Positions 26,682-54,000 of a stretch of 64,000 bases of DNA are shown here, piece by piece. Numbering within the stretch: position 1 is the stretch's first letter; every line of letters begins with the position of its first letter. The translations under genes were made by a program, and so were the position numbers. The stretch lies in the NCBI RefSeq assembly GCF_029643425.1, contig NZ_CP119106.1:2666001-2730000 (forward strand). The letters are read 5' to 3'. The notes below the pieces were generated by a model that was not told where the DNA came from, ran no database searches, and was given only the letters and a program-made list of their open reading frames with translations. The DNA is from Isoptericola sp. AK164 (GTDB taxonomy: Bacteria > Actinomycetota > Actinomycetes > Actinomycetales > Cellulomonadaceae).

Positions 26682-27479
26682 GTGACCGGAACCGCGCCGC
26701 ACGAACGGCGGCACGTCGCCGTCCCCGACGCTGCCGACGTCGGCTCGGCGGCCAAGGACGCCGCCCGCGACGCCGCCCACGGCGCGCGCGAGACCGTCTC
26801 CGGCGTCGTGCAGACCGTCGCGGTGGGCGCCACCGCGCAGGCCCGACGACTCAAGCCGAAGCTGCGCGGGTGGATCCACGCCGTGACCACGCCGCTCGCC
26901 CTGGCCGCCAGCATCGTGCTCGTCGTCCTGGCCGAACCCGTGGCCGGCAAGGTCGCGGCCGCGATCTTCGGCCTCAGCGCCCTGATGCTGTTCGGCACCA
27001 GCGCCGTGTACCACCGCGGCACCTGGTCGCCGCGGGTCGAGGCCGTGCTGCGCCGGATGGACCACGCCAACATCTTCCTCATCATCGCCGGCACCTACAC
27101 CCCGCTGGCCGTCGCGCTCTTGGACCAGCGGTCGGCGACGATCCTGCTCACCATCGTGTGGAGCGGCGCCGTCGCCGGCCTCCTCGCGCGCGTGCTGTGG
27201 ATGAACGCGCCGCGCTGGCTGTACGTGCCGGTCTACGTCGCCCTCGGATGGGTCGCGGTGGCCTATCTCGGCCAGTTCGGCGCCACGGGCGGACCCGCCG
27301 TCGTCTGGCTCGTCGCCGGCGGCGGCCTGGCCTACACCCTCGGCGCGGTCGTCTACGGCACCAAGTACCCCGACCCCTCGCCGCGCTGGTTCGGCTTCCA
27401 CGAGATCTTCCACGTGCTGACGGTGATCGGGTTCGCCTGCCACACCGTGGCGATCTACCTGGCCTCGCTCGCCGTCTGA
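26682..27479 (+). CDS. Hemolysin III family (PAQR-like) membrane protein
   Basis: The 265-residue protein has a charged N-terminal extension of about 65 residues, then seven hydrophobic segments with the PAQR/hemolysin III landmarks SAVYHRGTWS, MDHANIFLIIAGTYTP and FHEIFHVLTVIGFACH, whose Ser, His and Asp residues bind zinc in the family. The function in bacteria is probably membrane lipid hydrolysis or homeostasis, not toxin activity. The GTG at 26682 follows AAGGAGG. It is next to the Z-prenyl synthase as in M. tuberculosis Rv1085c-Rv1086. Confidence 0.87.
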   Translation: MTGTAPHERRHVAVPDAADVGSAAKDAARDAAHGARETVSGVVQTVAVGATAQARRLKPKLRGWIHAVTTPLALAASIVLVVLAEPVAGKVAAAIFGLSALMLFGTSAVYHRGTWSPRVEAVLRRMDHANIFLIIAGTYTPLAVALLDQRSATILLTIVWSGAVAGLLARVLWMNAPRWLYVPVYVALGWVAVAYLGQFGATGGPAVVWLVAGGGLAYTLGAVVYGTKYPDPSPRWFGFHEIFHVLTVIGFACHTVAIYLASLAV

Positions 27480-27528: not shown

Positions 27529-27618
27529 GGGGAGACGGGCCCTCGGCGGGGTCGTCGATCGCGAAGTGCAGGTCGCGCAGCGACCGTGAACGCGACCCTG
27601 CCGAGGGCCCGTCTCCCC
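27529..27618. repeat. Intergenic element with conserved core and long self-complementary arms, copy 1
   Basis: The arms 27529-27554 and 27593-27618 form a 26-bp stem with one G-T pair. The 38-nt loop contains a small hairpin GGTCGC-GCA-GCGACC. The core (about 27548-27600) is shared with the element at 45184-45285, but the outer arms are unrelated in sequence. It lies between the convergent hlyIII and nitrilase genes. Confidence 0.85.
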
Positions 27619-27641: not shown

Positions 27642-28463
27642 TCAGGCCTCGCGGGGGACGACGGTGTAGCGCCGGTTCACCAGGGAGGGGTTGGCCTCAC
27701 GGGCCTTCGTCAGCTCCTCGGCGTCGAGGTCGACCGTGCGGTACTGCGGCTTGTCGTCCATCTCGAGGCCGACGACGCCGTCCGGCCCCACGAGCGTGGA
27801 GCGGCCCGTGACGCCCTTGCCCGCCATGCCGACGCCGATGGTCACGACCGTGTTCTCGATCGCGCGGGCGGTGAGCAGGGTGCGCCAGTGCTCGGCCTTC
27901 AGCGGGCCGGCCACCCAGGCGGCGGGCACCACGAGCACGTCCGCCCCGGCGTCGACCACGCGCCGCGCCGACTCCGGGAACCGCAGGTCGTAGCAGGTGA
28001 TGACGCCGAACGTCAGGTCGCCGACGCGGATCGTGAGGGGCTCGGCGTCCACGGGCCCTGCCTGCAGCCGGTCCGACTCCCGGGTGCCGAAGGCGTCGTA
28101 CAGGTGCACCTTGCGGTAGACGCCGACCAGCTCGCCGGCACCGTCGACCGCCACGACGGCGTTGACGCCCTTGCGGGGCCCGCCGTCGGGCCCGGGCTCG
28201 TCCCCGGGCAGCGTGACCCCGGCGATCACGGCGACGCCGGTGGCCGCCGCCTGCTCGCGCAGCAGGCTCACGAACGGGCCGTCGAGGTCCTCGGCGTGCT
28301 CGATCCCCACGCCCGAGCGGTGGTAGCCGGAGGCGTACTCCGGCAGGACCAGCAGGTCCGCCGAGAGCTTCGCGGCCTGGGCGAACGCGTCGACGACGAG
28401 ATACCGGTTGGCCTCGTGGTCGTCGGCGATCGTGACCTGGGCGACCGTGACGCGCGCCGTCAT
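27642..28463 (-). CDS. Carbon-nitrogen (nitrilase-superfamily) hydrolase
   Basis: The 273-residue amidase has the catalytic triad in family context: Glu in LLVLPEYASG, Lys in YRKVHLYDAFG and Cys in VITCYDLRFPE. This pattern is closest to the Nit1/omega-amidase branch that hydrolyses deaminated glutathione or 2-oxo acid amides; the substrate is inferred. The start overlaps the stop of the small membrane-protein gene by four bases (ATGA), tying it to the mca operon. Confidence 0.88.
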   Translation of the reverse strand: MTARVTVAQVTIADDHEANRYLVVDAFAQAAKLSADLLVLPEYASGYHRSGVGIEHAEDLDGPFVSLLREQAAATGVAVIAGVTLPGDEPGPDGGPRKGVNAVVAVDGAGELVGVYRKVHLYDAFGTRESDRLQAGPVDAEPLTIRVGDLTFGVITCYDLRFPESARRVVDAGADVLVVPAAWVAGPLKAEHWRTLLTARAIENTVVTIGVGMAGKGVTGRSTLVGPDGVVGLEMDDKPQYRTVDLDAEELTKAREANPSLVNRRYTVVPREA

Positions 28464-33091: not shown

Positions 33092-33502
33092 ATGCTCGTT
33101 CGCACGCTCGACGAGATCACCGACACCGACGCCGACATCAAGACCGAGAACTGGCGTTCCAAGCGCATCATCCTGGCCAAGGAGGGTGTCGGGTTCTCCG
33201 TCCACGAGACCACGCTGTACGCGGGGACCGACAACTACTTCTGGTACGCGAACCACTACGAGGCCGTGTTCATCACCTCGGGCGAGGGGGAGATCGAGGA
33301 CCTCGCCACGGGTGAGGTGCACGAGCTCAAGCCGGGCACGCTGTACCTGCTCAACGACCACGACAAGCACAAGGTGCGGCCGAAGACCGACATCACGTGC
33401 GTGTGCGTGTTCAACCCGCCGGTCACCGGCCGCGAGGTCCACGACGAGAACGGCGTGTACCCGCTGATCACCGAGCCGGAGTCCCAGCCCGCCGCCGGCT
33501 GA
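33092..33502 (+). CDS. ectC: L-ectoine synthase EctC
   Basis: The 136-residue cupin cyclises N-gamma-acetyl-diaminobutyrate to ectoine. It has MLVRTLDEI, the metal/substrate-site segment [20 protein letters not shown] and [21 protein letters not shown] site precedes the ATG. Ectoine is an osmoprotectant, so the operon is probably salt-induced. No ectD follows: the next 210 bases hold repeats and a palindrome. Confidence 0.95.
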
Positions 33503-33575
33503 GACGGAGGTGCAGCCGGGTGTGAGGGCCGAGGAACGAGGCACTCGCACCCGGCGGAACCGCAGGCTCCGCCGG
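33498..33575. repeat. Diverged relative of the 78-bp intergenic repeat
   Basis: It shares GAGGTGCAG, GTGAGGGCCG, GGCACTCGC and GCGGAACCGCAG in the same order and spacing with the copies at 10374-10637, but its internal stem GCCGGGTGTGAG/CTCGCACCCGGC is rebuilt. Like copy 1 it starts in the stop codon of the upstream gene, here ectC. A fragment (CGGCTGAGACGGAACCGG) recurs at 33586-33603. Confidence 0.8.
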
Positions 33576-33620
33576 CCGACAGCACCGGCTGAGACGGAAC
33601 CGGCCGAGCCCCGCTCCGCA

Positions 33621-33695
33621 CGACGAGATCGACCCTCGTGGTTCGAGATCGACTCATGGTGAGTCGATCTCGAACCACGAGGGTCGATCTCGTCG
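33621..33695. repeat. 36-bp perfect palindrome between ectC and ilvA
   Basis: The arms 33621-33656 and 33660-33695 are exact complements around a TGG centre. Within each arm GAGATCGAC recurs, so the arm has internal repeats. It is likely a bidirectional terminator, and the stem is far longer than termination needs. Confidence 0.9.
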
Positions 33696-33712
33696 CGGGG
33701 TGCCCGACGCCG

Positions 33713-34933
33713 TCAGGTGACCTGGTAGCCGTCCCGCCGCAGCCGGTCCAGCACCGCCGCGCAGTGCTCGGGACCGGTGGTCTCGAGCTGCAGGGTCACC
33801 AGCACCTCGGAGACCTCCAGCGTGGTGTCGGTGCGCCGGTGGTCGACGCGCACGATGTTCCCCTCGGCGGCGGCCACCGTGTCCAGCAGCGAGGCCAGCG
33901 CCCCCGGCTCGTCCGACAGCCGCACCGAGATCTGCAGGTAGCGGCCGGCCGCCACGAGACCGTGCTGGACCACGCGCTGCAGCAGCAGCGGGTCGATGTT
34001 CCCGCCGGAGAGCACCGGCACCACGGTGCCGGTGAAGGCGCCCGGGGACGCGGACACCGCCGCGACGGCGGCCGCGGCGGCCGGCTCGACGACGAGCTTG
34101 CCGCGCTCGGCCACGAGCAGGAGCGCCCGCGACATCTCCGCCTCGGTGACCGTCCGGACCTCGACCCCCAGGCGGTGCAGCACCTCGAAGGGCACGTCGC
34201 CCGGCATGCCGACGGCGATGCCGTCGGCCATCGTCGACTCCAGGTCGCCGGCGATCGGACGCCCGGCCGCCAGGGAGGCCGGGTAGGCCGCCGCCGAGGC
34301 GGCCTGCACGCCGACGACCTTCACGTGGGGCGCGACCTCGGCCAGCACCGTGGCGATCCCGGCCACGAGGCCGCCACCGCCGAGCGGCACGACGACGGTG
34401 CCGACGTCGGGCACCTGCTCCAGGATCTCCAGGGCCACGGTGCCCTGGCCGGCCACGACGTCGGGGTGGTCGAACGGGTGGATGAGCACCTTGCCGGTGC
34501 GGGCGGCCTCCGCGCGGGCGGCGGACAGCGCCTCGTCGACGCTGTTGCCGAGCTGGCGCACCTCGGCGCCGTAGCCGCGGGTCGCCTCGAGCTTGGGGAC
34601 GGACGCGCCGACGGGCATGTAGACGACGGCCGGGATGCCCAGCTTCTCGGCCGCGAGCGCGACGCCCTGGGCGTGGTTGCCGGCCGAGGCCGCCACCACG
34701 CCGGCACGCTGCTCCTCGGGTGTGAGCCGGCTGAGTCGGGTGTAGGCGCCGCGGATCTTGAACGATCCGGCGCGTTGCAGGTTCTCGCACTTGAGGACGA
34801 CGTCGGCGCCGGCGAGCTGGGTCAGCGCCCGGAAGGGGTGCACCGGGGTACGGGTCACCACCCCGTCGAGCAGCTCGGCGGCTGCCTCGACGTCGGCGAG
34901 GGTCACTCGGTCCAGGGGTGTCGGTGAGTTCAC
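33713..34933 (-). CDS. ilvA: Threonine ammonia-lyase (IlvA-type) with ACT domain
   Basis: The 406-residue PLP enzyme deaminates threonine to 2-oxobutyrate. Lys59 in AGSFKIRGAY binds PLP, SAGNHAQG is the substrate loop and GGGGLVAGIA holds the phosphate. The C-terminal ACT domain (about 325-400, ISVRLSDEPGALASLL) indicates allosteric control. About 400 residues with one ACT domain fits both catabolic and short biosynthetic forms, so isoleucine supply is an inference. The start is GTG at 34933, 46 bp after the AI-2E-type gene. Confidence 0.88.
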   Translation of the reverse strand: MNSPTPLDRVTLADVEAAAELLDGVVTRTPVHPFRALTQLAGADVVLKCENLQRAGSFKIRGAYTRLSRLTPEEQRAGVVAASAGNHAQGVALAAEKLGIPAVVYMPVGASVPKLEATRGYGAEVRQLGNSVDEALSAARAEAARTGKVLIHPFDHPDVVAGQGTVALEILEQVPDVGTVVVPLGGGGLVAGIATVLAEVAPHVKVVGVQAASAAAYPASLAAGRPIAGDLESTMADGIAVGMPGDVPFEVLHRLGVEVRTVTEAEMSRALLLVAERGKLVVEPAAAAAVAAVSASPGAFTGTVVPVLSGGNIDPLLLQRVVQHGLVAAGRYLQISVRLSDEPGALASLLDTVAAAEGNIVRVDHRRTDTTLEVSEVLVTLQLETTGPEHCAAVLDRLRRDGYQVT

Positions 34934-43939: not shown

Positions 43940-45160
43940 GTGACACCCCCTGCCGCCCTGCCGCCCACCGTGACCGCCGTGCTCGACCGGCTCGTGCCCT
44001 GGCCCGACGACGGCACCCGCGCCGACGGTCCGGTCGCCGTCGACGCCACCGACCGGCTGCTGCTGGCCGAGGCCGCCGATCGCCTCGCCGCGACGGGTCC
44101 GGGCGACGTCGTCGTCCTCGGCGACCGTTTCGGGGCGCTCACGCTCGGCGCGCTCGCCCTCGGCGCGCCGGACGTGCGCACCCACACCGACGCCCTCGGC
44201 GCCGAGCTCGCGCTGCGCCACCACCTCGACGAGGACCCCGACGACCTGCGACGGCGCGCGACGATCGTCGACGCGCTCGAGCCGGCACTGCTCGACGGCG
44301 CCCGGCTGGTGCTGCTGCAGCTGCCCAAGTCGCTGGCCGAGCTCACCGAGATCGCCGAGGCCGTCGCCCGGCACGCGGCCGACGACGTCACGCTCCTGGC
44401 CGGTGGCCGCATCAAGCACATGACCCGTGCCATGAACGACGTGCTCGCCGACCGCTTCACCGCGGTCCGCGCCACGCTGGCGCGCAGCAAGTCCCGGGCC
44501 CTGGTGGCGTCCGGTCCCCGCCCCGAGATCCGCGACGCCGCGCCCCTGTACCCGGTCCGCGAGCTCCTGACCGACCCGGAGCTGCTGGCGGCGGCGACCC
44601 CGACCGACGGCGGCGCTCCCCCGCCCCGTCTCGACGTCGTCGCGCACGGCGGAGCGTTCGCCGGAGCGGCCCTCGACCACGGCACCCGGTTCCTGCTGAG
44701 CACCGCCGGTCGCTGGCCCGCCGCCGAGCGGGTGCACGACGCCGTCGACCTCGGGTGCGGCACCGGGCTGCTGTCCGTGGTGCTGGCCCGCCGCTACCCG
44801 CTGGCGAGCGTGGTGGCCACCGACCGCTCGGCGGCGGCGGTGGCGTCCACCCGGGCGACGCTGGCGGCGAACGGCGTCTCCGCCGTCGTGCAGCGCGACG
44901 ACGCCGGGGCCGGCCTGGCCGACGAGAGCGCCGACGTCGTGCTGCTCAACCCGCCCTTCCACGACCGTGCCGCCGTCAGCACGGACGCCGCGCACCGCAT
45001 GTTCGCCGCGGCCGGGCGGATCCTGCGTCCCGGCGGGGAGCTGTGGTGCGTGTACAACACGCGGCTGCGCTACCGCGGGTCGCTCGCCCGTGCCGTCGGA
45101 CCCACGGACCACGTCGCCCAGGACCCCCGCTTCACGGTCACCCGCTCTCGCAAGGGGTAG
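43940..45160 (+). CDS. RsmC/RlmG-like class I SAM methyltransferase
   Basis: The 406-residue protein has a degenerate N-terminal methyltransferase-like domain (about 40-190) and a catalytic C-terminal domain with VDLGCGTGLLSVVLARRYP (about 273-291), VATDRS and the NPPF motif in LLNPPFHDRA. This doubled layout is that of the rRNA guanine-N2 methyltransferases RsmC and RlmG; the target G cannot be assigned. The GTG at 43940 is chosen because an earlier ATG overlaps the divergent SelW-like gene. Confidence 0.83.
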   Translation: MTPPAALPPTVTAVLDRLVPWPDDGTRADGPVAVDATDRLLLAEAADRLAATGPGDVVVLGDRFGALTLGALALGAPDVRTHTDALGAELALRHHLDEDPDDLRRRATIVDALEPALLDGARLVLLQLPKSLAELTEIAEAVARHAADDVTLLAGGRIKHMTRAMNDVLADRFTAVRATLARSKSRALVASGPRPEIRDAAPLYPVRELLTDPELLAAATPTDGGAPPPRLDVVAHGGAFAGAALDHGTRFLLSTAGRWPAAERVHDAVDLGCGTGLLSVVLARRYPLASVVATDRSAAAVASTRATLAANGVSAVVQRDDAGAGLADESADVVLLNPPFHDRAAVSTDAAHRMFAAAGRILRPGGELWCVYNTRLRYRGSLARAVGPTDHVAQDPRFTVTRSRKG

Positions 45161-45183: not shown

Positions 45184-45285
45184 GCGGACGCGCGGAGGGC
45201 TGCACGGCGGGGTCGTCACCCCCGGAGTGGAGGTCGCGCAGCGACCGTGAACGCGACCCTGCGGTGCAGCCCTCCCCGCGTCCGC
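45184..45285. repeat. Intergenic element with conserved core and long self-complementary arms, copy 2
   Basis: The arms 45184-45215 and 45254-45285 pair over 32 positions with two mismatches and one G-T. The core (about 45209-45261) contains the same GGTCGC-GCA-GCGACC hairpin and a 31-nt stretch (45231-45261) identical to 27570-27600, while the outer arms differ completely. It again lies between convergent genes, here a methyltransferase and an FKBP. Confidence 0.85.
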
Positions 45286-45290
45286 GATGC

Positions 45291-45692
45291 TCACTTCACG
45301 TCGACGACGTCCACGACGAACACCAGGGTCGCCCCGCCGGGGATACCGGCCTGCGGCACGCCGCGCTGGCCGTAGCCGTGCTCGGACGGGATGGACAGCA
45401 GCACGCGGTCGCCGACGTTGCGGCCGACGAGCCCCTTGTCCCAGCCGCCGATGACGGCGCCGACGCCGATCGGGAAGTCGATGGTCTGGCCGCGGTCCCA
45501 GGAGTTGTCGAACATCTGGCCGCCCCAGGTCTGGCCGTAGTAGTTGACGACGATGGTGCGGCCGGCGTCCACGATGGGGCCGGAGCCCTCCTCGAGCACC
45601 TGGACCTGCAGGCCCGACGGGGCGTCGCCCTCGGGGAAGGTGATCTCGGGCTTGTCGCCGAAGGAGCCGGTGGCGGTGGGCAGCGTGGTCAT
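45291..45692 (-). CDS. FKBP-type peptidyl-prolyl cis-trans isomerase
   Basis: The 133-residue cytosolic protein has one FKBP domain: VNYYGQTWGGQMFDNSWDRG, FPIGVGAVIGGWDKGLVGRNVGDRV, IPSEHGYG and LVFVVDVVDV. It catalyses proline isomerisation in protein folding. No signal peptide is present. Confidence 0.93.
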   Translation of the reverse strand: MTTLPTATGSFGDKPEITFPEGDAPSGLQVQVLEEGSGPIVDAGRTIVVNYYGQTWGGQMFDNSWDRGQTIDFPIGVGAVIGGWDKGLVGRNVGDRVLLSIPSEHGYGQRGVPQAGIPGGATLVFVVDVVDVK

Positions 45693-47805: not shown

Positions 47806-49722
47806 ATGACGCTCGATGCACAGGCACCACCGCGCACGGACGGACGCAGCACGTTCCCCGCGATCGCGGAGTACGCGTTCCTGTCCGACTGCGAGACGAA
47901 CGCCCTCGTCGCCCCGAGCGGCGCGATCGAGTGGATGTGCGTCCCACGTCCGGACTCCCCGAGCGTCTTCTCCTCGCTCCTGGACCGCGGAGCGGGCCAC
48001 TTCCGCATCGGCCCCCACGGGGTCCGCGTTCCCGTCGCACGGCGGTACATCCCCGGCACCCTCATCCTCGAGACCACCTGGCAGACCTCGACCGGATGGC
48101 TCGTGGTCCGCGACGCGATGGTCATGGGGCCCTGGCACAACCTGGACGAGCGGTCGCAGACGCACCGGCGCACGCCGACGGACCACGACGCCGAGCACGT
48201 CCTGCTGCGCACCGTGAAGTGCGTCTCCGGGAAGGTCGACCTCGAGGTCGTGTGCTCGCCGATGTCCGACTACGCCCGGTACGAGCCCGACTGGGAGTAC
48301 CTCGACGAGGGGTACTCGTCGGTGATCGCCCGCACCGGGGACGCCAACCCCGACCTGCGGCTCAGCTCCTCGCTGCGCTTCGGTCTCGAGGGCCGGCGCG
48401 CCCAGGCCCGCACCCGCATGGAGGAGGGCGACACCCACTTCGTCGCCATGGCCTGGTCCCCGCTGCCGACTCCCGGTTCCTTCGCCGAGGCCGCCGAGAA
48501 GATGTGGCGCACCGAGCAGTTCTGGCGCGACTGGATCACGCAAGGCTTCTTCCCCGACCACCCGTGGCGCATCTACCTGCAGCGGTCCGCCCTGACCCTC
48601 AAGGGCCTGACGTACGCCCCGTCCGGCGCGCTGCTCGCCGCGGCGACGACGTCGCTGCCGGAGACGCCCGGCGGGGAGCGCAACTGGGACTACCGGTACG
48701 CCTGGATCCGCGACTCCACGTTCGCGCTGTGGGGCTTGTACACCCTCGGGCTGGACCGCGAGGCGAACGACTTCTTCGCGTTCATCCAGGACGCCTGCCA
48801 GGACAACAAGCAGCTGCAGATCATGTACGGCGTCGACGGCGAGGAGGAGCTGCACGAGTCCGAGCTGAGCCACCTCACGGGCTACGAGGGTGCCCAGCCG
48901 GTCCGCGTCGGCAACGCCGCCTACAACCAGAGCCAGCACGACGTCTGGGGCGCGGTCCTCGACTCGGTCTACCTGCACACCCGCAACCGGGAGCAGCTTC
49001 CCGAGGCGCTGTGGCCTGTCCTGAAGCGTCAGGTCGAGGAGGCCGCCAAGCACTGGCACCTGCCCGACCGCGGGATCTGGGAGGTGCGCGGCGACCCGCA
49101 GCACTTCACCTCGTCCAAGCTCATGTGCTGGGTGGCGCTCGACCGGGGCGCCCGGCTGGCGCGGCTGTACGACGAGCCGGACTTCGCCGAGCAGTGGCAG
49201 AAGCTCGCCGACGAGATCCACGCCGACATCTGCTCCAAGGGCGTCGACGAGCGCGGGGTGTTCACCCAGCGGTACGGCGACGACTCCCTGGACGCCTCGC
49301 TGCTGCTGGTACCGCTGCTGCGGTTCCTGCCGCCGGACGACGAGCGGGTGCGGGCCACGGTGCTCGCCATCGCCGAGGAGCTCACCGAGGACGGTCTGGT
49401 GCTGCGCTACCGCACCGAGGAGACCGACGACGGGCTGGCCGGCGAGGAGGGCACGTTCACGATCTGCTCGTTCTGGCTCGTCTCGGCGCTGTGCGAGATC
49501 GGAGAGGTAGAGCGGGCCCGGACGCTGTGCGAGCGGCTGCTGTCCTTCGGGTCGTCGCTGAACCTGTACGCCGAGGAGATCGACCCGCGCACCGGGCGGC
49601 ACCTGGGCAACTTCCCGCAGGCTTTCACGCACCTGGCGCTCATCAACGCCGTCATGCACGTGATCCGCGCCGAGGACGACCCGGGCGACCACCGGGCGTT
49701 CCGTACCCCGAGCCGCGCCTGA
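47806..49722 (+). CDS. GH15 family glycoside hydrolase (probable trehalase)
   Basis: The 638-residue protein has the N-terminal beta-sandwich with FLSDCETNALVAPSGAIEWMC and the (alpha/alpha)6 catalytic barrel containing NWDYRYAWIRDS and YGVDGEEELHESEL, the hallmarks of GH15. No signal peptide, so it is cytosolic. Mycobacterial homologues such as Rv2402 hydrolyse trehalose; glucoamylase-like activity is the alternative. Divergent from the ECF42 operon. Confidence 0.87.
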   Translation: MTLDAQAPPRTDGRSTFPAIAEYAFLSDCETNALVAPSGAIEWMCVPRPDSPSVFSSLLDRGAGHFRIGPHGVRVPVARRYIPGTLILETTWQTSTGWLVVRDAMVMGPWHNLDERSQTHRRTPTDHDAEHVLLRTVKCVSGKVDLEVVCSPMSDYARYEPDWEYLDEGYSSVIARTGDANPDLRLSSSLRFGLEGRRAQARTRMEEGDTHFVAMAWSPLPTPGSFAEAAEKMWRTEQFWRDWITQGFFPDHPWRIYLQRSALTLKGLTYAPSGALLAAATTSLPETPGGERNWDYRYAWIRDSTFALWGLYTLGLDREANDFFAFIQDACQDNKQLQIMYGVDGEEELHESELSHLTGYEGAQPVRVGNAAYNQSQHDVWGAVLDSVYLHTRNREQLPEALWPVLKRQVEEAAKHWHLPDRGIWEVRGDPQHFTSSKLMCWVALDRGARLARLYDEPDFAEQWQKLADEIHADICSKGVDERGVFTQRYGDDSLDASLLLVPLLRFLPPDDERVRATVLAIAEELTEDGLVLRYRTEETDDGLAGEEGTFTICSFWLVSALCEIGEVERARTLCERLLSFGSSLNLYAEEIDPRTGRHLGNFPQAFTHLALINAVMHVIRAEDDPGDHRAFRTPSRA

Positions 49723-49741
49723 GCCCCGCCGTCGTCCCCTC

Positions 49742-49940
49742 CGAGGTAGGCAACCCCCTGCCGAGGTAGGCGAGTTTCCGGCGAGGTAGGCAACCTGCCC
49801 GCGAGGTAGGCAACGTCCAGTCGGAGTTCTCGCCTACCTGAGCGAAGACTTGCCTACCTCGCCGAGGACTTGCCTACGTCGGCCGAAGGTTGCCTACCTG
49901 GGCGGAGAGCTGCCTACCTGGACGGAAGATTGCCGACCTC
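49742..49940. repeat. 20-bp-periodic array of GAGGTAGGC units in two orientations
   Basis: Four direct units have GAGGTAGGC at 49743, 49763, 49783 and 49803, exactly 20 bp apart. After a short centre, six inverted units carry the complementary GCCTACCT word at 49832, 49852, 49872, 49892, 49912 and 49932, again exactly 20 bp apart, with single changes in the third and sixth. The 10-12-bp stretches between cores vary. The whole block could fold as an imperfect giant hairpin. Two more inverted units occur at 50011 and 50031. The period is not a multiple of three and no protein is evident. Confidence 0.9.
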
Positions 49941-49963
49941 GCGGGAGACGACGGAGACGACGA

Positions 49964-49995
49964 CGGCCGGGCACCTCGCGAGAGGTGCCCGGCCG
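49964..49995. terminator. Hairpin with GCGA tetraloop before the Bax-inhibitor-1 gene end
   Basis: A 14-bp perfect stem (49964-49977 with 49982-49995) lies in the same convergent gap, between the periodic array and the two outlying repeat units. Confidence 0.78.
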
Positions 49996-50051
49996 CCGCC
50001 GGTGTGCTGTTCTACCTCGCGAGGAGGTTGCCTACCTCGCGGATACGGGGG

Positions 50052-50885
50052 TCAGTCGCCGCGCATGATCGCCAGCAGGCGCAGCAGCTCGAGGTAGAGC
50101 CAGATCAGGGTGACGATGAGGCCGAAGGCCGCCGACCAGGCGAACTTGGCCGGCACGCCGCCCTCGACGCCGCGCTTGATGAAGTCGAAGTCCATGATCA
50201 GCGACATCGCCGCCAGAACCACGGCGAACAGGCCGATGACGATGCCCAGCGTGCCGCCGCGCATGCCCCATCCGTCGAGCACGCCGGTCCAGACCAGGAC
50301 GACGTTGACCAGCGAGAACAGCAGGTAGCCGACCATGCCGATCAGCAGGAAGCGCGTGAACTTCGGGGTGACGCGGACCTTGCCGGAGCTGTACAGCCCC
50401 AGCGCCGCGGCGAACACGCACAGGGTCAGCAGGACGGCCTGCCCCACGATGCCGTCGTAGGCCGACTCGTAGAAGGCGGAGATCCCACCCAGGAACAGAC
50501 CCTGCGCCACCGTGTACAGCGTGATGAGCACCGGGCTGGGGTTCTTCTTGAAGGCGTTGACCAGGCCCAGCACGAGGCCGACGATCATGCCGCCGATCCA
50601 CAGGTAGGGCATCGTGTCGGTCAGCTGCCAGCTCACCGCGCCGACGACGACGAGCAGCGCGAGCAGCCCGCCGGTCTTCATGATGACGTCGGTGTAGGTG
50701 AGGCGCTTGGTGTCGACCGGGGTGGCCGACGGCGCCTCGTACATGTTCTGCAGCGAGGCGGCGTCGGCGGCCTGGGCCCCGTACGCGCCGTACTGCGCGG
50801 GACGCGCCGACGTCGCGGTGCCGCCGCGCGCGGTGCGGCGCGGCTCGCCGAAGACGTCGCTGTTCGAGAAGACGGGGTTGCTCAT
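50052..50885 (-). CDS. Bax inhibitor-1/YccA family membrane protein
   Basis: The 277-residue protein has a 75-residue Ala-rich soluble N-terminus and seven hydrophobic helices with the family's AFYESAYDGIVGQAVLLTLC and GLIVTLIWLYLELLRLL near the end. BI-1 proteins form pH-sensitive calcium-leak channels in some bacteria; the YccA branch modulates FtsH. Which applies here is unknown. A 5' AGGAGGAGTG site supports the ATG at 50885. Confidence 0.88.
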   Translation of the reverse strand: MSNPVFSNSDVFGEPRRTARGGTATSARPAQYGAYGAQAADAASLQNMYEAPSATPVDTKRLTYTDVIMKTGGLLALLVVVGAVSWQLTDTMPYLWIGGMIVGLVLGLVNAFKKNPSPVLITLYTVAQGLFLGGISAFYESAYDGIVGQAVLLTLCVFAAALGLYSSGKVRVTPKFTRFLLIGMVGYLLFSLVNVVLVWTGVLDGWGMRGGTLGIVIGLFAVVLAAMSLIMDFDFIKRGVEGGVPAKFAWSAAFGLIVTLIWLYLELLRLLAIMRGD

Positions 50886-51021
50886 GCACTCCTCCTGGTC
50901 GCGGCTGCCGGGTGCCCGACGACGGGTTGTCGCGGGCAGGGCCGGGTCGCTGGCCGTCGCGGTTCATCCTATGCAACGCACGGCCGGTCCGACACGTTCC
51001 CGCCGATCTGCCGAGGATCGC

Positions 51022-51081
51022 GTCGGCACTCCGTGGCCGGTTCGGCAGTGCGGACTGCCGAACCGGCCACGGAGTGCCGAC
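51022..51081. terminator. 28-bp perfect hairpin downstream of the RND gene
   Basis: The arms 51022-51049 and 51054-51081 are exact complements with a GCGG loop. It lies 10 bp after the stop of the RND exporter and upstream of the BI-1 gene, both on the minus strand, so it probably ends the RND transcript. Confidence 0.85.
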
Positions 51082-51090
51082 CCGACCGCC

Positions 51091-54000
51091 TCAGCCGGCA
51101 GCGGCGGCGGTCGCCTCGCGGTCCCTGCGCTCGACGGCCTTGCGCTCCCGCTTCTCCGCCCGGCGCCGACGACGCGCGGCCCGGCGGTCCTTGCGGCCCT
51201 CGACCAGCACGTAGAGCACCGGCACGATGAGCAACGTCAGGAGCGTCGAGGAGATGAGCCCGCCGATCACCACCAGGGCCAGCGGCTGGGAGATGAACGC
51301 GCCGCCCCCGGTGAGCCCGAACGCCATCGGGGTCAGCGCGAAGATCGTCGCCAGGGCCGTCATGACGATGGGTCGCAGACGCTTGCGAGCACCCTCGCGC
51401 ACCGCGTCGTCGAGGTCGCGGCCCCGGCGCCGGTACTGGTTGATGAGGTCGATGAGCACGATGGCGTTGGACACCACGATGCCGACCAGCATCAGCACAC
51501 CGATGAGCGCCGCGACACCGAGCGGGGTGTCGGTGACCAGCAGCGCGACGAGCGCACCCGTCGCGGACAGCGGCACGGAGACCAGCAGGATCAGCGGCTG
51601 GATCAGCGACTTGAAAGTCGCGACCATGATCAGGTAGACGAGCGCGATCGCGGCCAGGAGCGCCAGACCGAGGTCCGCGAAGGCCTCCTCCTGGTCGGCC
51701 GCGACACCGCCGATGGAGACGGAGGCACCGGCCGGCAGCTCCAGCCCGTCGATGGTGGTGGTCACCTCGGCGCTCAGCGTGCCGAGGTCCTGGGCGCCGG
51801 GGGTCACGGCGACCGTCGCGGACCGCTGCCCCGCGGCGCGGCTGATCGAGGCCGGCGTCTCGACCTCCTCGACCGACGCGACGTCCGTGAGCGGCACCGC
51901 GCCCGCGGCGGTCGGGATCTCGATCTCCTCGACGGCACCGACGGTGTCCGGAGCCTCTCCGGTAACCACCAGGGTCTCCAGCGGCCCGTCGCCCAGGTCC
52001 ACCTCCCCGACGGTCTGCTCGGGATTCATCGCCCCGGACACGATGCCGGCGACCTGCGTCTCGGTGAGCCCGGCGTCGGCCGCGGCCTCCCGGTCGACGT
52101 CCACCTGCAGGACCGTCTGGGCGGTCGAGAGGTCGTTGGTGACCTCGGCGACGCCGTCCAGCTCGGCCACGGCGTCCTGGACGGTCTCGGCGGCCTCGGT
52201 GAGGTCGTCGAGCTCGGTCGCCTGGACCACCAGGTCGATGGTGCTGGACCCGAAACCGGAGTCCCCGGTGGAGACGCTGACCTCGGTGGTCGGCCCCTGG
52301 CCGGCGAGGTCCTCGACGGCGGCACGGACGTCGTCCTGCGCGGCGACGCCGTCGGCGTCCTCGTCGAGCGTCACGGAGAAGCTCGCGGTGGGCGCGGCCC
52401 CGCCCCCGAAGAACGCGGCCTCGGGCGAGTCCCCGGATCCGACCGACGTCTGCACCGTCTCGACGCCGTCGACGTCGGCGATGGCCTGCTCCATCGCGCG
52501 GGCGGCGTCGTCCTGCGCCTGCAGCGAGGTGGTGTTCTCGAAGGTCTGGGTCACCGTGACGGTGTCCTGGCCCGAGTCGCCGATGAAGTTGGTCTCCAGG
52601 CGCGGCACGAGCGCCAGAGTGCCGGCGAGGATGCCGACGGCGACGAGCAGGGAGACCCAGGGGTGCCGCAGGGACGCGGCGAGGCTGGGCACGTACGCGC
52701 GCTGCCAGAGACCGCGACGCTCCTGGGCCTCGGCAGCCTCGCGGATCGCCCGGCCGCCGTCGGTGGCCTCCTCGGCGCCCTTCGGCGGCTTGACGAACCA
52801 GTAGGCCAGCACCGGCACGATGGTGAGCGCCACCAGCAGGGAGGCGAGCATCGCGATGGCGACGGTGAACGCGAACGGCCGGAACAGCTCGCCCGTCATG
52901 CCGGACACGAGGCCCAGCGGCAGGAACACGGCGACGGTGCAGATGGTCGAGGCGGCGATGGCCCCGGCGACCTCGCCCGTGGCGGTGAGGATCGCGTCCT
53001 TCTTGTCCTCGCCGTAGGACAGGTGTCTCTTGATGTTCTCGATGACGACGATGGCGTCGTCGACCACGCGGCCGATGGAGATCGTCAGGGCGGCCAGCGT
53101 GAGGATGTTCAGGGTGTACCCGGTCACGTCCATGACCAGGAACGCGGTGGCCAGCGACAGCGGGATGGACACCGCCGAGACGAGCGTGGCGCGCAGCGAG
53201 AGCAGGAAGACCAGGATGACGAGGATCGCGAAGACCAGGCCGAGGCCGCCCTCGGTGGCGAGCCCCTCGATGGACTCCTCGATGAAGGGGGCCTGGTCGA
53301 ACACGACGGCGGTGGTGATGCCGGCCTCGTCGAGCTCGGCGGCGTTGTCGTCGATGACCTCCTGCACGGCGTGCGAGACGTCGACGGTGTTGCCCTGCGG
53401 GGTCTTGATGATGCCGATGCCCAGCGACGGCTCGCCGTCGAGGCGGGAGAAGGACGTGGCCTCGGACTCCGCGACCGAGACGTCCGCGACGTCGCCGAGC
53501 AGGACGGGCTCCGGCGGAGCGGGGGGCGCGTTGGCGTCCGGGAGCTGCTCGGGGTCGGTCCCCGTCCCGCCCTCGGCGGGCGCCCCGGCGGCGCTGTCGG
53601 TGCCCGACGGCGGCACGGTGCCCTCGGCTCCCGGTGCGGCGGCCGCGGCGTCGTCCGTGACGCCCGACGTGCCGCCGTCGGCCCCGGCGGTGCTGGTCAC
53701 GCTCGGCACGAGGGGGATCTCCTCGATCTCCTCGAGGCTGCCGATCCGGGTCCCGGCCTGCAGGGAGTACGTGTCGCCGTCCTCGGTGACGGTGCCGGCC
53801 GGGACGACGACGCCGTAGTCGGCGAGCACGTCGGTCACCTGGGCGACGTCGAGGCCCTGCTCGGCGAGGTCGGCCGGGTCGACCTCGATGAGCACCTGGT
53901 CGTCGACGGCCCCGCTGACAGTCACGGACCGCACGTCGTCGACGTCCTCGAGGTCCGGCACGAGGACGGCCTCGATCTCGTCGGCCAGCCCGGCGAGGTC

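Follow-up and report, generated by a model that had tools for sequence, protein, structure and literature searches.

A probable family of dispersed palindromic elements with a conserved tip and freely varying paired arms in Isoptericola and close relatives

Two hairpins with a shared core between convergent genes

The window analysed here is a 64,000-nucleotide stretch of the Isoptericola sp. AK164 contig NZ_CP119106.1, and it contains two copies of a hairpin, copy 1 at positions 27529-27618 and copy 2 at 45184-45285, both present as first described. Copy 1 lies between the genes for an HlyIII family protein (26682..27479, + strand; PF03006, 4e-51) and a carbon-nitrogen hydrolase (27642..28463, - strand; PF00795, 2.1e-37), and copy 2 between those for a class I methyltransferase (43970..45160, + strand; PF05175, 6e-42) and an FKBP-type isomerase (45291..45692, - strand; PF00254, 2.9e-24). 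The convergent setting given for both sites in the preliminary description is thus confirmed. In copy 1, a 5' outer arm of variable sequence (27529..27545, +) pairs with the 3' outer arm (27602..27618, +), and the arms enclose the conserved core as modelled (27546..27601, +; G000:C1:2693546-2693601, 77.4 bits), in which a 9-bp basal stem (27546-27554 paired with 27593-27601, +) carries a folded tip with the covarying mini-hairpin GGTCGC-GCA-GCGACC (27571..27585, +). Copy 2 comprises a variable 5' outer arm (45184..45206, +), the conserved core (45207..45262, +; G000:C1:2711207-2711262, 76.3 bits) and a 3' outer arm (45263..45285, +) that pairs with the first. The mini-hairpin occurs in both sequences, as had been reported, and the two cores do share an identical run, which on reading comprises 32 consecutive bases and not the 31 first counted. 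By an ungapped scan, copy 1 has a stem of 26 bp with 1 mismatch and a loop of 38, and copy 2 a stem of 25 bp with 2 mismatches and a loop counted as 52; the outer arms are self-complementary at each site and differ in sequence between the sites, just as originally stated.

Extent of the family

The mini-hairpin alone is weakly distinctive, being found at 161 places compared with 117 for its backward control (15 bases, up to 2 mismatches). A 23-base core pattern with up to 3 mismatches is found at 21 places in the window's genome and at none when read backward; 19 of these places top a long hairpin and two (L077 and L078) do not. The same pattern matches 10 of 58 genomes, and its backward control finds nothing in 57 of them. 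A covariance model of the core, aligned from 41 of 43 sequences with two tandem partial copies omitted (L032:1477 and L049:1477; the first model alignment also excluded L031, L077 and L078), has 27 matches in the window's genome and 2-60 per genome across the 18 genomes of the genus (E <=0.01; 266 summed), the extremes being 60 in G010, 58 in G013 and 2 in G015. At the same threshold 66 of 121 family genomes have a match, many of them marginal, and 24 reach 1e-6, spread over 6 of 25 genera. A second model with stricter filters (E <=0.001) matched, among 297 genomes of the order, only the five that belong to the window's own genus. An exact-pattern scan of 84,980 species returned 65 stretches, all from Isoptericola, Krasilnikoviella, Promicromonospora or Myceligenerans. 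The family is therefore taxonomically narrow as far as searched. That the two sites are ordinary terminators with a core shared by chance could be argued from hairpins of 14-36 bp that stand without the core at several other gene ends in the window, but its probability is negligible, and it is refuted by the backward control, the core-model matches in 18 genomes and the narrow distribution among 84,980 species.

A phage or plasmid origin is unsupported, since the exact patterns were found in no viral contig and a distant blastn search of copy 1 against plasmids and phages gave short matches only (E 0.2-0.7 and 0.002-0.8), mostly in annotated genes. Membership of an Rfam family is rejected as well: at the gathering threshold the window matches tRNA only, and eight loci searched at E up to 10 matched only miRNA models, far below cut-off. 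Among the open-access papers listed by the literature searches, none describes the core-tip hairpin, and for 'skipping-rope' RNA no relevant title was among the matches listed. The earlier view that the design has no named family hence stands with regard to Rfam; its kind, however, is known from REP and RPE, which are palindromes at gene ends and in frame within genes.

Anatomy of the hairpin

The anatomy was described from 167 distinct copies, taken among the matches listed (for example 20 regions each from G010, with its 60 matches, and G013, with 58) and left from 170 after removal of 2 weak covariance hits (L144:6854 and L280:2122) and 1 duplicate. From end to end, a typical copy measures about 100 nt: an outer arm of variable sequence leads into the 9-bp basal stem, which bears a tip of about 38 nt, and the complementary arm follows. 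The outer arm extends at least 15 bp beyond the 9-bp modelled stem in 153 of the 167 copies; its length is 18-25 in 147 of these, with a mode of 21, and among the 153, pairing is 96% at position 19 and has fallen to 37% by position 23. In total the stem is about 30 bp long, with arms that are nearly free in sequence. The association of the core with paired arms has exceptions, since 14 of the 167 copies have arms shorter than 15 bp by an ungapped count (at least one of these, L284, being in fact a long stem interrupted by bulges), and one copy in gcvP (G066) keeps the core and has lost its stem pairing. The 5' arm is purine-rich and the 3' arm its complement, which makes arms alike in composition even where their sequences are unrelated. 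The 5' flank is A-rich (A 65% at the second base and 39% at the third; T 0-1%), and no T-run follows the 3' arm in the direction of the core (T 4-15% per position).

The highly conserved tip contains GAAG in 152 of 164 parsed copies (3 were unparsed) and variants of it otherwise, and changes in the mini-hairpin are compensated among copies. Two further pairs are standard in all 41 model sequences, namely pair 16-24 (C-G in 26, G-C in 15; both sides changed in 15) and pair 22-46 (U-A in 30, C-G in 11; both sides changed in 11). These two pairs cross, as in a pseudoknot-like contact, and the covariation score of the whole structure was reached by 0 of 500 shuffles. Covariation of the tip pairs indicates that one strand folds, be it DNA or RNA.

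Placement at gene ends

Of the 167 copies, 158 have outer arms of 10 bp or more, and these were assigned a gene context with a home-made gene caller. Convergent placement, the setting of both sites in the window, applies to 97 of them but not to the rest, of which 48 separate tandem genes and 13 fall within open frames; no copy separates divergent genes. Each of the 145 classified intergenic copies follows the 3' end of at least one gene, compared with 14 divergent pairs among the 57 neighbour pairs of the window (13 convergent, 30 tandem). This placement would be expected of a functional transcript-end module, that is, a bidirectional terminator or 3' stabiliser with a tip bound by an RNA-binding or termination factor specific to the family and with arms that drift under selection for pairing alone. 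The A-rich 5' flank would give a U-enriched tail on the transcript antisense to the core, and at tandem sites the core is antisense in 31 cases and sense in 17; both features make it plausible that copies at gene ends are used as terminators or 3' protectors. Covariation of the tip pairs and the compensated changes of the arms agree with such a module, and so does site 2, where 5 of 17 relatives have a core hairpin with compensated arms and, by eye, about 9 have a plain hairpin and 3 lack one.

On the other hand, the core is absent from site 1 in all 16 relatives that were resolved (G016 was unresolved): in G002, whose flanks are closest to those of the site, the two genes are 27 bp apart, and elsewhere the gap holds plain hairpins, GAGGTAG arrays or, in several cases, almost nothing. 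A module of this kind is likewise at odds with a core orientation at tandem sites that does not track the direction of the sole transcript and with the copies inside genes described below, and a T-run 3' of the arm is missing in the core direction, the weak U-enriched tail being that of the opposite direction. We consider the transcript-end module an unlikely account of the whole family, albeit one to be taken seriously. The objection foreseen in the first description, that the arms might simply be ordinary terminators that also occur without the core, is borne out in part, as core-less hairpins of up to 36 bp are found at other gene ends of the window and, by eye, at the same junction in relatives.

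Copies inside genes

In 13 copies, an open frame passes through the hairpin without stops, and their total stems are 24-34 bp long. Pfam was run on ten of them and supports copies in gcvP (L279, L335 and L306), in a gene for an abhydrolase/AMP-binding fusion (L162, L268 and L243), in hemD (L166), in a glycosyltransferase gene (L351), where the insert falls between the two domains, and in an HrpA-type helicase gene (L305), where the DUF3418 match spans the insert. The intragenic call for L345 (RNase_H_2) is doubtful, because its right flank is not coding-like. Codon bias gave no support for the intragenic calls of four Promicromonospora copies, L305, L308, L320 and L329; the flanks of the last three are orthologous to L305 or to each other, and L305 is the one of the four on which Pfam was run. 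Two further copies in gcvP or the fusion gene, L284 and L278, have interrupted arms. One in-frame translation of the core is PEVEGALAPVNAS.

A gcvP query matched 54 of 61 family genomes, of which 30 loci were kept. At the insert, the core model hits five of these at E <0.001 and a sixth weakly, in several genera, and it has no match in gcvP of the window's genome or of G009. The insert of G014 is a perfect stem of 32 bp. A terminator inside a gene would be expected to harm that gene; long stems such as that of about 30 bp inside gcvP therefore suit a terminator poorly, and the intragenic copies (in gcvP, hemD, the glycosyltransferase gene and other frames) weaken any reading of the family as terminators only.

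Joint change of the two arms

Arm evolution was followed in 38 single-copy orthologous pairs with flanks at least 84% identical (mean 87.2), which share loci and are not independent. Identity between orthologous arms is 64%, as against 42% when copies are drawn at random from different genomes, and reaches 93% for the orthologous core (29 equal-length pairs). Arm identity spans 4/16 to 16/16: at one extreme arms match no better than random copies, at the other they are unchanged. About 62% of the 608 arm pair-positions are unchanged, 203 changed from one Watson-Crick pair to another, 11 changed on both sides otherwise and 17 on one side. Restricted to the 22 least diverged pairs, those in which 11 or more of 16 positions agree, the count is 47 compensated changes and 11 others. 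The claim that pairing is kept and sequence is not is thereby upheld for the most part.

These counts could also arise if pairing were kept mainly by a mutational process, template switching in which one arm is copied onto the other, and the stem were under little selection; this reading overlaps with the one we prefer, and we hold it to be rather improbable. The excess of compensated over single changes, both in the 38 pairs and in the least diverged 22, speaks for it, and the element is inverted in place in 10 single-copy orthologous pairs, spacer inversion being, according to one account (PMC8604942), the second product of template switching. However, changes in the arms show no significant clustering (18 adjacent changed pairs, 15.0 expected, p 0.19) and so give no positive sign of multi-base switching; moreover, the common stem length and the covariation of the tip need selection, and the stem of the G066 gcvP copy has decayed.

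Wobble pairs bear on whether the element functions as an RNA strand or as DNA. A first count, biased by the way in which stems were extended, gave 57 G-T and 24 A-C (interior positions 38 and 19, p 0.016), and a recount without the extension bias gave 28 and 17 (p 0.14). That the unbiased count does not clearly favour G-T would fit a DNA-level site, a cruciform or lagging-strand hairpin bound by a chromosome-organising or repair protein, as would the occurrence of both core orientations and the location of some copies within arrays of 20-bp repeats. We give such a site little credence, given that the first, biased count leaned towards G-T, that no candidate protein was identified, and that 2-60 copies per genome and the absence of the core from site 1 in G002 are unsuited to an essential site.

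Paralogous arms show no sign of mutual descent in the window's genome, where none of 190 arm pairs reaches 14/18 identities, and there the arms of different copies are unrelated as first proposed. This does not extend to G008, in which five copies have identical 18-base arms. Similar arm pairs number 10 of 78 in G008, 12 of 378 in G013 and 19 of 465 in G010, more than in every one of 200 column shuffles (maxima 2, 10 and 17, respectively), which indicates that whole hairpins have been copied in these genomes. In the six loci of G008 and the one of G012 that were compared, alignment is confined to some 90-400 bp surrounding the hairpin, with GAGGTAG arrays forming part of the aligned stretch. 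Tandem partial duplications of the element are also present. At about 9080-9400 of L150 (G010), the 5' arm and core are tandemly tripled, with a 3' arm in the last copy only.

A spreading palindromic element as the preferred explanation

Taken together, we favour, with somewhat better than even confidence, the explanation that both sites are members of a single family of REP- and RPE-like palindromes, about 100 nt long and dispersed through the genomes of Isoptericola and close relatives, whose folded tip would be the part that is recognised. The family is probably a spreading element rather than an ordinary gene-end signal. Its spread is suggested by the variation in copy number (2-60), the identical whole hairpins and the intragenic copies; the two core orientations, the in-place inversions, the covariation of the tip and the maintained pairing fit as well. 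In the mechanism that we propose, the tip, folded as single-stranded DNA or RNA, would be recognised by a trans-acting machinery and for this reason be conserved, whereas the stem would be needed only as a paired shaft of about 30 bp. Whole hairpins would spread and persist where they are harmless or useful, and surviving copies could act as hairpins at transcript ends or, within proteins, supply peptide inserts to linkers. Selection on the shaft would keep the arms paired, possibly with assistance from template switching between them during replication, which would also flip the core in place. Weighing against this explanation, many copies are old, as 33 groups of loci share orthologous flanks and copies in gcvP occur in several genera, and the paralogous arms of the window's genome show no mutual descent.

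Neither a precise empty site nor a target duplication was found at the four presence/absence sites compared, where the whole intergenic stretch differed, so that the precise empty sites looked for in relatives did not materialise there. The family does not fit a MITE, in that no target-site duplication was seen at the same four sites and the terminal arms differ between copies of the window's genome. Mobilisation as a REP by a RAYT (Y1 transposase) is rejected for now, as Y1_Tnp matches none of the 18 genomes of the genus and 5 of 14 control genomes, and so is a retroelement origin (group II intron or retron-derived), as RVT_1 likewise matches 0/18 and 3/14, respectively.

Several known systems resemble the family in part. 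RPE are palindromes of about 150 bp, many of them in frame in unrelated genes and encoding a conserved peptide, according to one report (PMC10969869). The core hairpin is like RPE in its in-frame copies within unrelated genes, Pfam-supported in five gene types, and unlike them in that it occurs in a different phylum, its tip is conserved and its outer arms are nearly sequence-free at a fairly fixed length. To our knowledge, the mobiliser of RPE has not been identified. GTAG- and CGTC-tagged REP are dispersed and lie downstream of genes, mostly where neighbours converge or run in the same direction; their stems, 5-13 bp long, belong to the consensus, and an unpaired tag marks one end. Some are intragenic, for which linkers or loops have been suggested. 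These statements come from their description (Di Nocera 2013, PMC3733652), in whose text the words Actinobacteria, Streptomyces and Mycobacterium do not appear. The core hairpin is likewise a dispersed palindrome predominantly downstream of genes. In contrast to these REP, its stem of about 30 bp is free in sequence, the conserved part is the tip, GAAG lies within that tip and is not an end tag, and none of the 18 genomes of the genus has a match for the Y1 transposase of a RAYT. The family thus behaves like REP and RPE and departs from REP in stem, tag and RAYT.

Stems of intrinsic terminators also keep their pairing via double changes; in the study that describes this, 90.7% of the columns in the stem show no variation, and intermediates are most often GU (Safina 2017, PMC5381666). 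The core-hairpin stems share the double changes, but their arms turn over widely with few single changes, and 13 of 158 copies lie inside open frames. Hairpins shaped by template switching, with multibase compensatory changes, arm homogenisation and spacer inversion as described in two papers (PMC8794818 and PMC8604942), represent a mutation mechanism and not a family; the operation of that mechanism at the core hairpin is putative.

The palindromic repeats used for comparison owe their definition to the sequence of stem or ends. In this family it is the tip that is fixed, with a stem close to free, a pattern pointing to recognition by fold. With some hesitation, we speculate that the family represents a mobile palindrome of a new class, in which the tertiary fold of a single-stranded tip is what is recognised, the ends are almost sequence-free and the arms of a shaft of about 30 bp are rewritten jointly; such an element would reach gene ends and, in frame, enzymes with the help of neither a Y1 transposase nor a reverse transcriptase. 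With dozens of orthologous sites whose flanks differ by about 13%, two questions become directly testable, namely spread of the REP/RPE type without a visible transposase and joint change of arms by selection or template switching, and in-frame copies in enzymes such as GcvP are natural tests of peptide insertion.

Neighbouring repeats and other hairpins

At 49722-50052 of the window, an array of about 20-bp repeats of the GCGAGGTAG type flips midway to the reverse complement, CTACCTCGC. Such switching arrays are also found in L172, L180 and L181 at site 1, at 1880-2260 of L235 and at 1775-2245 of L238; such arrays occur at convergent junctions and, in G008, around core hairpins, and in L179 and L263 the repeats are in a single orientation only. 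At 2050-2285 of L131 (G010), an array of 20-bp repeats of the CGCTGACTCGCG type lies between two inverted core hairpins about 445 bp apart. Among the core-less hairpins of the window, one of 36 bp with a loop of 3 is located at a convergent junction (33502-33713), and one of 32 bp with 1 mismatch and a loop of 4 between tandem genes (50885-51091). In the gcvP linker of genera g3 and g11, L386, L388 and L390 have other in-frame palindromes with a GAGGAACGAGC motif, perhaps a second family, and the spacer of L386 resembles a GTAG variant of the core.
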